Shown here: positions 23,937-27,458 of the stretch, one piece after another
Position numbering within the stretch: the stretch's first letter is position 1
Layout: each line of letters begins with the position of its first letter
Source: a virus
IMG/VR virus record: IMGVR_UViG_3300025073_000039
Coordinates: 1-64,000 of that record
DNA length: 64,000 nt
Strand: one strand, 5' to 3'
Program-made: the position numbers and the translations under genes
Notes under the pieces: model-generated
What the model was told of the DNA's origin: nothing
Seen by the model: only the letters and a program-made list of their open reading frames with translations
Databases searched by the model: none

Positions 23937-24425
23937 ATGATTTTCTGCGGAATAGATCCTGGTTTGTCCGGGGCCATCGCGATGATTACTGAGAGTAACG
24001 AAATTGTTGGCAAATTTAAGATGCCTACTATTAAGAACGTCAAAGGCAAGAACGAAATTGATTTAACTGAGGTTGTAAAGATTTTTCAAAATTACGAAAT
24101 AATGTTCGCCATATTGGAAAGAGTCCACGCCATGCCGAAAAACGGCGCTGTCTCCATGTTCACGTTCGGGCGTAGTTTCGGGATGATAGAAGGTGTTATC
24201 GCAGCGCTTAAGATCCCTTACGCGCTTGTGAGCCCACAGACTTGGCAGAAAGAGATTTTAAAAGACTTTAACAGAGACGACGATAGTAAACAAAGCAGTA
24301 TCCTCCATGCAAAAAGGATGTTCCCTAAGGATGATTTTAGACCAACAGAGAGAGCGAAGGTGGACGACAGTAATATCACTGACGCTGTGAACATTGCTTT
24401 ATACGCTAAACTAAAATTTAATTAA
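23937..24425 (+). CDS. RuvC-like Holliday-junction resolvase
   Basis: The product is 162 residues, the size of RuvC. The catalytic acidic residues of the RNase H-like fold are visible: D7 in FCGIDPGLSGAIA, E61 in ILERVHAM, and the C-terminal pair in DDSNITDAVNIALYAKL. The segment SMFTFGRSFGMIEGVIAAL matches the phage RuvC pattern. It should cut four-way junctions formed in recombination or packaging, consistent with recA upstream. The Y RNA-like element at 24431 begins five bases after its stop. Confidence 0.85.
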   Translation: MIFCGIDPGLSGAIAMITESNEIVGKFKMPTIKNVKGKNEIDLTEVVKIFQNYEIMFAILERVHAMPKNGAVSMFTFGRSFGMIEGVIAALKIPYALVSPQTWQKEILKDFNRDDDSKQSSILHAKRMFPKDDFRPTERAKVDDSNITDAVNIALYAKLKFN

Positions 24426-24430
24426 TATTT

Positions 24431-24494
24431 AAGGGAAGTTATAAGCAAGTTACTTCTTGGATGAAAAACACTTACTTAATTTTTCTCCCTTTTT
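24431..24494 (+). ncRNA. Short Y RNA-like stem-loop upstream of Ro60
   Basis: AAGGGA (24431-24436) pairs with TCCCTT (24486-24491), then an internal loop (6 nt AGTTAT opposite 8 nt AATTTTTC) and an inner helix AAGCAAGT (24443-24450) with ACTTACTT (24470-24477) are followed by a loop beginning TACTTC. The same order of outer stem, internal loop with ATTTT(T)CTCCC on the 3' side and inner helix recurs at 26222-26360, with shared sequence AAGTTACTTC. It lacks the tRNA-like module. It may be a second, minimal Y RNA or a leader bound by Ro60 itself; a T run follows. Confidence 0.5.
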
Positions 24495-24506
24495 AAAATA
24501 AAACAT

Positions 24507-25970
24507 ATGAAATTTCGATCGGGGAAATCAGTCGGTCAAAAAACTGTCAACTTAGCAGGCGGAGAAGCATTCAAGCAATCTCCTGAACTTGAATTGGTGT
24601 CTCTGCTTTTGACTTCGTTTGTAAAAGATAAATTTTACGAATCAGGCAATGACCAATTAGACAGATTGGCGTTGATCGTTAATAAATTAGCTGATAAGAA
24701 ATTCGCCGGTCAAGCCGCGATTTATGCGCGTAACGAATTTGGCATGCGCAGTATCACCCACGCTTTGATTGGCGAGATTGTCCATATTGTTAAAGGCCAA
24801 GAGTGGGTGAAGAACGCGGTAACGCGCACTGTGAAGCGCCCCGATGATATGCTTGAGATGTTGGGCTACTTTGGCTCAAAACATTCTGATAGTGCCATTC
24901 CGAATTCTTTAAAGAAAGGGCTGCGTTTGGCGGTAGGCAAATTCGATGCTTACCAGCTGACTAAATACAAAAGCTCCAGATCGGATGTAAAAATGGTAGA
25001 CTTGTTTAACCTCGTCCACCCTAAACCGGTGGATAGTAGGGCTGCTGATGTTTATTCCAAATTAATTAATGGCGAATTAAAAAACACTGAGACTTGGGAA
25101 GCTAAACTTTCCAGTGCCGGCCAAGAAGTAAAAGAAATGGCCGATGGTGCTGATAAGGAAGAGAAGCTGTCTGAGTTAAAAGAGAGTGCATGGCAAGAAT
25201 TGTTAGAGAGTAAAAAGTTGGGCTACTTCGCTTTATTGCGCAACTTGCGCAATATCAGTCAGCAAGCGCCTAAACTTATTCCGCTTGCGATTGAGCAACT
25301 CCTTAACAAAGAAGCCATTCAGAAATCCCTGGTAATGCCTTTCCGCTTCCAAACGGCTTACAAAGAACTGGATGAGGCCGGTGTAAGTCGAAAGTTATTG
25401 GATGCGCTAAACGATGCGACCGAACTGTCACTCTCTAATGTGCCGAAATTCGCTGGTAAGACTTTGATAGTCCTCGACACCAGCGGTTCGATGCAGGGCG
25501 ATCCGTTAGACATTGGTTCATTATTTGGCGCGGTGTTGTTTAAAGCAAACGCTGACGCAGATTTAATGACGTTTGATGACGACGCTCGGTATGAGAAAGG
25601 CATCAGCGGTAAAGATTCGCTCTTGACGATCGCTGAGAAGTTGCGCAAACACGACGGTGGCTCAACCAACTTCCACGATATATTCATTAAGGCTAAAGAG
25701 AAGTATGATCGGATCGTGATTCTGTCTGATATGCAAGGGTGGAGCGGTGGCTACGACAACCCTACTGGAGATTTGCAAACTTATAATAAAAAGTTTGGTG
25801 CCGATCCGTTCATTTATTCGTTTGATTTAGAAGGACACGGTACGCTCCAATTCCCTGAGAATAAGATTTTCTGTATTGCTGGTTGGTCTGATAAAATCTT
25901 AGGGGTAATGGCGCTTCTGGAAGAAGACAAAAACGCGTTAGTCAATAAAATAAAAGCAATAGTACTTTAA
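24507..25970 (+). CDS. rsr: Ro60/Rsr protein (TROVE and vWA domains)
   Basis: The product is 487 residues, a little shorter than human Ro60 (538). Residues 1-300 match the helical-repeat TROVE ring: FKQSPELELVSLLLTSFVKD, AAIYARNEFGMRSITHAL, RPDDMLEMLGYF, KYKSSRSDVKMVDLFNLVHP. Residues 318-487 are a von Willebrand A domain with a full MIDAS (DTSGS 324-328, T387 in GGSTNFHD, D408 in LSDMQGW). Ro60 rings bind misfolded RNAs in the central cavity and Y RNAs on the outer surface; Y RNAs gate access and tether partners such as PNPase. Here it is flanked by Y RNA-like elements, an arrangement typical of bacterial rsr loci. Confidence 0.92.
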   Translation: MKFRSGKSVGQKTVNLAGGEAFKQSPELELVSLLLTSFVKDKFYESGNDQLDRLALIVNKLADKKFAGQAAIYARNEFGMRSITHALIGEIVHIVKGQEWVKNAVTRTVKRPDDMLEMLGYFGSKHSDSAIPNSLKKGLRLAVGKFDAYQLTKYKSSRSDVKMVDLFNLVHPKPVDSRAADVYSKLINGELKNTETWEAKLSSAGQEVKEMADGADKEEKLSELKESAWQELLESKKLGYFALLRNLRNISQQAPKLIPLAIEQLLNKEAIQKSLVMPFRFQTAYKELDEAGVSRKLLDALNDATELSLSNVPKFAGKTLIVLDTSGSMQGDPLDIGSLFGAVLFKANADADLMTFDDDARYEKGISGKDSLLTIAEKLRKHDGGSTNFHDIFIKAKEKYDRIVILSDMQGWSGGYDNPTGDLQTYNKKFGADPFIYSFDLEGHGTLQFPENKIFCIAGWSDKILGVMALLEEDKNALVNKIKAIVL

Positions 25971-25972
25971 AA

Positions 25973-26216
25973 TTTACGGAGGCAGCTAAGCCAGGATTTC
26001 CTCGAATTACTTTCATAAAGTTATTCTAACGCTTCGGCGTAAGAACTCTTATTGTTCTATGGTAGGTATCAAAAGACCCCGATCGATTGATATCTCCTTA
26101 CCGGAAAGTCGCCCGAAAGGGTGACCGACCAAAGTGAAGCGTGCAGAGCAATCTGTATCGCTTCGAGCACAGGTAGCGCGATAGCTCCAGTCCTGACTGC
26201 CTTTCTCCTCCGTAAA
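25973..26216 (+). ncRNA. Structured RNA domain of about 245 nt between Ro60 and the Y RNA
   Basis: TTTACGGAGG (25973-25982) pairs perfectly with CCTCCGTAAA (26207-26216). Inside, several hairpins are compact and perfect: ACGC-TTCG-GCGT, AGAAC/GTTCT, TATCAA/TTGATA within GGTA/TACC, GTCGCCC-GAAA-GGGTGAC, and GAAGCG/CGCTTC. No open frame above a few codons fits. The tetraloop-rich design (TTCG, GAAA) marks a selected RNA. It may be part of one long Ro60-associated transcript with the Y RNA that follows, or a separate RNA. It matches no class I know. Confidence 0.6.
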
Positions 26217-26221
26217 AATCG

Positions 26222-26360
26222 ATTTTCTGGGTAGCGATAGAAAAGTTACTTCGACTTATAATCGAGTGGTCGCTTGTTCGAGTCAAGCCGGCGCCTTCGG
26301 GAGCCGTAGCTCAGTTGGTAGAGCACTTTTACTTTTCTAGATTTTCTCCCAGTTTAAAAA
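26222..26360 (+). ncRNA. Y RNA with circularly permuted tRNA mimic
   Basis: Stem: CTGGG (26227-26231) with CCCAG (26348-26352), internal loop, AGAAAAG (26239-26245) with CTTTTCT (26332-26338). Inside is a tRNA in permuted order: variable-arm-like TTCGA/TCGAG hairpin (26246-26271), T stem GCTTG, loop TTCGAGT and CAAGC (26272-26288), acceptor strand CGGCGCC, a TTCG loop, acceptor strand GGAGCCG (six of seven pairs match), TA, then D arm GCTC-AGTTGGTA-GAGC (26309-26324). The T- and D-loop contacts (GG with TTC) are intact. This is the tRNA-mimic design of bacterial Y RNA such as YrlA. Confidence 0.85.
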
Positions 26361-27021: not shown

Positions 27022-27053
27022 CACTTGACAAGTAAAGAAAAATGTGATATAAT
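27007..27053 (+). promoter_or_regulatory. Module promoter: DnaA-box-like site, palindromic -35, TATAAT
   Basis: TTATCCACAG starts at 27007, TTGACA is at 27025-27030 inside cACTTGaCAAGTa, and TATAAT is at 27048-27053 with a 17-base spacer. The first gene starts at 27084. It drives the SSB-like and SbcCD genes. Confidence 0.9.
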
Positions 27054-27083: not shown

Positions 27084-27458
27084 ATGTTTATAAAAAAAGG
27101 AACAGGCGAGGATCTAGTTGACCAAGTAAAAAGGTTAGCCGAAAATGCGACTCCAGAAGACATGAAGAAAATGGAGAAGGAGCTTGATAGTGAGTTCAGC
27201 GGAATGGGCTCTGTGGACAGGGTTAAAACATTAATGAGGATACTTAGGAGGATGGGCGTACCACCGCATGAATTATTGATTGTTGCTTACGGGATGGTAT
27301 TAGAATTATCATTATTAGACGATGTGGTAACGCCAAAAATAAAATTGTATCACTCTAAATTTATAGAGGGTAACAAATGTGTCATAGAGAACTTTAAAGA
27401 AAGTATAGAAAAAATTTATAAAAAATCTGCCGCCACCGGCAGGGAAAAGAAAAAATAA
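27084..27458 (+). CDS. Hypothetical protein
   Basis: The product is 124 residues and acidic, helical at the N-terminus (VDQVKRLAENATPEDMKKM), with LMRILRRMGVPPHELLIVAY in the middle and a lysine-rich tail. It is the first gene after the module promoter and precedes the SSB-like gene by three bases. No motif is recognised. Confidence 0.5.
   Translation: MFIKKGTGEDLVDQVKRLAENATPEDMKKMEKELDSEFSGMGSVDRVKTLMRILRRMGVPPHELLIVAYGMVLELSLLDDVVTPKIKLYHSKFIEGNKCVIENFKESIEKIYKKSAATGREKKK

Follow-up and report, generated by a model that had tools for sequence, protein, structure and literature searches.

The 64,000-nt window analyzed here (positions 1 to 64,000 of the 89-kb viral record IMGVR_UViG_3300025073_000039) contains a gene for a Ro60 protein together with three predicted Y RNAs on the same strand, in the order mini Y RNA, Ro60, 244-nt RNA, and tRNA-like YrlA (Table 1). 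The predicted protein matched the Pfam TROVE domain (64 bits) and PHROG 850 (RNA-binding protein) and has PDB relatives 9l5y/9kop and 2nvo; its vWA_Ro60 match in Pfam, at 21 bits, was under the 27.7-bit cut-off of that model. The mini Y RNA (AAGG-GAAGUUA-UAAGCAAGU-UACUUCU..ACUUACUUA-AUUUUUCUC-CC) lies between an open reading frame at 23937-24425 and the Ro60 gene and was absent from the preliminary description of this DNA. The YrlA-type RNA matched its Rfam model at 43.2 bits (E value, 2e-8), a score below the gathering cut-off of 69. ARAGORN placed a tRNA-Ile(UAU) at 26229-26298, inside YrlA and overlapping its tRNA-like module; this tRNA is most likely false, a misreading of the YrlA module that is to be expected also at the Ro60 loci of other phages.

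TABLE 1 Features of the Ro60 locus and predicted parts of the 244-nt RNA
Feature	Position	Strand	Description
Minimal Y RNA	24431..24491	+	61 nt; directly upstream of Ro60; P1/P2 stem, 19-nt loop; Ro-stem 38.9 bits
Ro60 (TROVE + vWA)	24507..25970	+	487 aa; Pfam, PHROG, and PDB relatives
Large Y RNA (candidate)	25973..26216	+	244 nt; Ro-stem scan 35.5 bits; fold z -6.5
P1, 5' strand	25973..25982	+	UUUACGGAGG; pairs with 26207-26216 as closing stem
5' internal-loop element	25983..25988	+	CAGCUA; family consensus UAGYGA
P2, 5' strand	25989..25997	+	AGCCAGGAU; pairs with 26190-26198; one C.A mismatch
Junction element	25998..26004	+	UUCCUCG; family consensus UACUUCG
Large multi-hairpin module	26005..26189	+	Without tRNA-like T-loop or D-loop motifs; z -4.9 computed over 25998-26189
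P2, 3' strand	26190..26198	+	GUCCUGACU; partner of 25989..25997
3' internal-loop element	26199..26206	+	GCCUUUCU; family consensus AAUUUUCU
P1, 3' strand	26207..26216	+	CCUCCGUAAA; partner of 25973..25982
YrlA-type Y RNA	26226..26356	+	tRNA-like module; Rfam YrlA 43.2 bits; Ro-stem 57.7 bits

Two nucleotides separate the stop codon of Ro60 from the 244-nt RNA. The preliminary description had delimited the RNA as 25973-26216 and had noted that it is closed by a perfect stem of 10 bp and contains tight hairpins capped by UUCG and GAAA; a direct reading of the sequence bears out the limits to the base, the stem with zero mismatches, and both hairpins (ACGC-UUCG-GCGU and GCCC-GAAA-GGGU). That description missed the very parts that identify the RNA, the internal loop and the second helix that the closing stem contains: an asymmetric internal loop (CAGCUA / GCCUUUCU) lies between P1 and P2. 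The minimum free energy of the whole RNA is -89.6 kcal/mol, compared with -61.2 +/- 4.4 kcal/mol for 200 dinucleotide shuffles, none of which was as low. Because the inner 192-nt module folded alone also has a z score of -4.9, this signal does not come from the closing stem only. Forcing the fold to adopt the Ro-stem gave -89.3 kcal/mol, a cost of 0.3 kcal/mol. The module is compact and contains many stable hairpins, and the predicted 3' end of the RNA is closed in the 10-bp stem, with no 3' tail predicted. Prediction on the window found no terminator or promoter defining transcript ends near the 244-nt RNA.

Searches with the Rfam 15 covariance models returned no match to the 244-nt RNA at the gathering threshold and nothing sensible at E ≤ 10, in line with its having been called unrecognised. 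Group I and II introns, RNase P, tmRNA, GOLLD, ROOL, and the other Rfam 15 classes were set aside, as no covariance model matched 25973-26216; YrlA (RF02553) was likewise set aside, with no match at E ≤ 10 and with T-loop and D-loop motifs absent from the 192-nt module. ARAGORN found no tRNA at 25973-26216. Two degenerate DNA patterns made from the RNA gave zero matches when scanned on IMG/VR, and nhmmer and blastn comparisons against all fetched loci (described below) returned nothing meaningful. At the DNA level, a comparison with 50,697 phage records covered, among the matches listed, only the tRNA-like part of YrlA, and the use of the SbcC-like protein of the window as bait yielded no near relatives.

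The class to which the RNA probably belongs emerged from its ends. Ro60 loci were fetched from IMG/VR and from bacterial genomes using the Ro60 of the window as the query. Arrays of Y RNAs with one common docking stem were found there in the intergenic DNA preceding Ro60; the stem is built as P1, UAGYGA, P2, UUACUUCG, a variable module, P2', AUUUUCU, and P1'. The phage-type loop (UAGYGA / UUUUCU) departs from the Rfam YrlA consensus, which is why phage tRNA-like Y RNAs score below the Rfam gathering cut-off. The ends of the 244-nt RNA match the docking-stem plan, with P1, CAGCUA, P2, the UUCCUCG junction, and GCCUUUCU on the 3' side, and its innermost P1 pair (25982-26207) corresponds to columns 8/48 of the family, which covary between G-C and A-U. 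Its 5' motifs are individually weak, as CAGCUA is off UAGYGA and UUCCUCG is off UACUUCG, and together with the C.A mismatch in P2 they make this the most divergent of the three stems of the phage.

A scoring model that combined the loop motifs with P1 and P2 pairing was trained on 25 Y RNA stems, taken from other phages only. When both strands of the window were scanned, the top two sites, both on the plus strand, were YrlA and the 244-nt RNA; permitting shorter loops added one site, at 24435, directly upstream of Ro60. The score of the 244-nt RNA (35.5 bits) compares with a maximum of 26.6 bits on the reverse strand of the window and with 30.3 bits as the best of 30 dinucleotide-shuffled 64-kb windows. 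A null set of 728 kb of phage strands without Ro60, fetched with the RecA of the window as bait, contained no Ro-stems: its maximum was 28.7 bits, and no site reached 30. Across 68 Ro60 loci, 109 sites scoring 33 bits or more were found on the Ro60 strand (at most 25 of them training examples) versus none on the opposite strand. The inner part of the stem was tested separately because the closing stem had already been spotted in the preliminary description; given that closing stem, none of 40,000 shuffles reached the inner score of 25.1, the highest being 17.4; taken by themselves in fixed register, the three loop motifs have a P value of about 2e-6. The 89-kb record, read as two stretches, contains exactly three Ro-stems (mini, 244 nt, and YrlA), all of which flank Ro60, with none in the remainder. 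The placement of the RNA in the Ro60 cluster stands.

Covariation in the stem was assessed on a gap-free alignment of 50 stems with a 9-bp P2. Compensatory changes were found in all 17 stem pairs, and 85.3% of cells were paired, compared with 56.8% when partners were shuffled and at most 52% when the strands were slid. The sites had been selected partly by P2 pairing, and a further test of P1 hence ignored it in choosing the 3' strand: its three innermost counted pairs were formed in 98, 96, and 96% of sites. What this covariation supports is the family's docking stem and not the pairs of the 244-nt RNA's own module, which are without such support because no alignable homolog was found. The earlier view that the RNA is a selected one is upheld. 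The statement that it fits no class does not hold for its terminal stem, which is the predicted Ro60-binding stem, with the conserved internal loop, of the adjacent Y RNA and of about 110 others beside related Ro60 genes; like them, the 244-nt RNA has a Ro60/TROVE gene next to it in the same orientation.

Y RNAs with large modules occur at other Ro60 loci. In 48 of the 69 scanned Ro60 records, 112 distinct Y RNAs were found (score of at least 33), with modules of less than 60 nt in 59, of 60 to 110 nt in 42, and longer in 11. T or D motifs resembling those of tRNA were present in 34 of the 42 modules of intermediate size and absent from 9 of the 11 longer than 110 nt. One of these 11 (L134) looks like two adjacent Y RNAs merged by the scanner, and another (L125) contains a T-like motif and has a fold no better than shuffles. 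Other large-module Y RNAs were found at L010, L018 (whose listed 3' end is probably the wrong partner), L026, L065, L073, L088, and L117.

The Ro60 closest to that of the window among those found for this comparison, at 55% identity, is encoded by IMGVR_UViG_3300036885_000228 (L058), where the order is mini Y RNA, Ro60, a 247-nt Y RNA, a 63-nt Y RNA, and a tRNA-like Y RNA. The 247-nt Y RNA (L058:5449-5702) lies immediately behind the Ro60 stop codon, has the same stem architecture and a multi-hairpin module, folds better than shuffles (z -4.3), and is similar in length to the RNA of the window (247 versus 236 nt as measured by the scanner), whereas the module sequences align only at background. 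A MAFFT/RNAalifold comparison of the two RNAs was likewise at background in sequence, and its consensus of -13 kcal/mol was not interpretable. By tree-edit distance, the modules of the window and of L058 are 109 apart compared with 160 +/- 24 for shuffles, which puts L058 among the closest; other large modules are also closer in shape than shuffles, to a lesser degree, so that predicted structure is only suggestive of homology between the two modules. An open reading frame of this locus that resembles an HNH endonuclease by eye (L058:3406-3903) overlaps the beginning of the mini Y RNA that precedes Ro60 and is possibly a homing-endonuclease insertion beside a Y RNA.

Known bacterial Y RNAs are about 80 to 150 nt long and mostly contain a tRNA-like module, although YrlB illustrates that not all of them do; their modular nature is an established idea, and the work on bacterial Ro60 and Y RNAs is built on few systems. 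The Y RNAs of bacterial Rsr/Ro60, including YrlA, have a two-helix terminal stem with an asymmetric internal loop and are encoded beside Ro60, as is the 244-nt RNA, but the module of YrlA is tRNA-like and about 85 nt long, in contrast to the 192-nt multi-hairpin module here. We consider it likely that the 244-nt RNA serves the Ro60 of this phage as a second Y RNA, with the docking stem at its ends and a large non-tRNA module acting as an adaptor. The RNA is probably transcribed together with Ro60 and YrlA. Ro60 would hold the docking stem (P1, internal loop, P2, and UUCCUCG junction), and the 192-nt module would take the place of the tRNA-like module of the neighboring YrlA and offer a partner-binding surface unlike that of YrlA. 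The phage would then have one mini, one tRNA-like, and one large adaptor RNA for its Ro60. According to a review of the Deinococcus system, Rsr is bound by the stem of the Y RNA, while polynucleotide phosphorylase (PNPase) is tethered, and its substrates are gated, by the remaining part (PMC4726728). By analogy with this D. radiodurans complex (Rsr / Y RNA / PNPase, or RYPER), in which a Ro60 orthologue and a stem-docked Y RNA are combined as predicted for the phage, the module of the 244-nt RNA may tether or gate a target RNA or another partner, such as a nuclease or a ribosomal or tRNA-handling factor. The docking on Ro60 is well supported by sequence; for the phage, the likeness to RYPER is drawn from the Ro60 and RNA sequences, and an adaptor or scaffold role of the module and its outcome are inferred from what the far part does in that complex. 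In Listeria phage CKA15, noncoding RNAs that are transcribed at very high levels close to a homolog of Rsr were proposed by the authors to be Y RNAs (PMC12282133), a likeness to the present locus in placement, by description rather than by sequence. A literature search from which most subscription papers were excluded found neither a Y RNA of about 244 nt with a multi-hairpin module nor arrays mixing three module kinds around a phage Ro60.

The alternative that survives best accepts the stem as that of a Y RNA and takes the module to be a decoy that occupies or titrates a host factor, such as an RNase or a tRNA-targeting defense nuclease, while Ro60 merely stabilizes the RNA. A compact module rich in stable hairpins would suit this role, as would the dependence of Y RNA accumulation on Ro60 (PMC4726728) and the suggestion that the tRNA-like domain of the Salmonella Y RNA (YrlA) is a competitive inhibitor of a tRNA-cutting nuclease (PMC7790460), and mini Y RNAs without a sizeable module are common (59 of 112); tethering, however, is the role that has been demonstrated for a bacterial Y RNA (PMC4726728), and we regard a decoy as a serious but rather unlikely explanation. 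It is improbable that the sequence belongs to the Ro60 mRNA as a structured element, such as a 3'-end protection or processing signal, rather than a separate Ro60-bound RNA. Its start directly behind the stop codon and the lack of a predicted terminator nearby are compatible with such an element, but the Ro-stem motifs would be left unexplained, Y RNAs with the same stem lie upstream of Ro60 in most relatives, and one locus (L129) has four upstream and none behind Ro60. An unrelated structured RNA that resembles a Y RNA stem by chance would account for the missing Rfam match and the imperfect individual motifs; this is strongly disfavored, being given a very low probability by the shuffle, non-Ro60 phage, and conditional tests, and the corresponding site of L058 is occupied by a large Y RNA. 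Least probable of all is a Ro60 client, in which case the RNA would be misfolded or under surveillance and its single-stranded 3' tail would pass through the ring of Ro60: this would fit the location in the Ro60 cluster and the binding of misfolded RNAs by Ro60 (PMC4726728), but the ends as predicted are closed by the perfect 10-bp stem, no 3' tail is predicted, and the stem is of the partner type. The preliminary description had left the choice between client and partner open; the 244-nt RNA is most likely a partner of Ro60, as its partner-type stem suggests.

If the 244-nt RNA is indeed a Y RNA, many Ro60-bearing phages would have several Y RNAs, some longer than 200 nt, that differ in the module carried on one docking stem, and a comparison of the modules of a single phage would give a direct test of what Y RNA modules recruit. 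The stem definition used here finds Y RNAs that Rfam and tRNA finders miss or misname. More tentatively, and somewhat against the odds, phage Ro60 could be a hub for interchangeable adaptor RNAs that share a docking stem, with the large modules bringing in partners other than PNPase and retargeting Ro60 during infection; the RNA of the window and several unrelated-looking designs in other phages would be examples of such large modules.

Several further observations were made at these loci. Large Y RNAs at L010:5585-5840, L012:5648-5910, L013:5610-5850, L018:5689-5920, and L028:5648-5905 form a separate family whose modules contain tandem units that resemble H-type pseudoknots by eye; one such unit (CCGAU AAACC ACAAA AUCGG GGUU) recalls the pseudoknots of tmRNA. 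A 283-nt Y RNA (L125:2592-2869) was found just upstream of Ro60 in a 634,780-bp uncultured phage (LR745206.1), and because its module folds no better than shuffles, it may rely on pseudoknots or partners. The phage-collection contig IMGVR_UViG_3300032156_002402 contains a class A RNase P RNA (L065:174-442; 136 bits) surrounded by some 30 tRNAs in an array that precedes the Y RNAs and Ro60; it could be a true phage RNase P RNA or a sign of a misassigned host contig. In the window itself, a perfect sigma-70 promoter (TTGACA-17-TATAAT, 12/12, with an extended -10 TG) is present at 27025-27053, just before the open reading frame at 27084.
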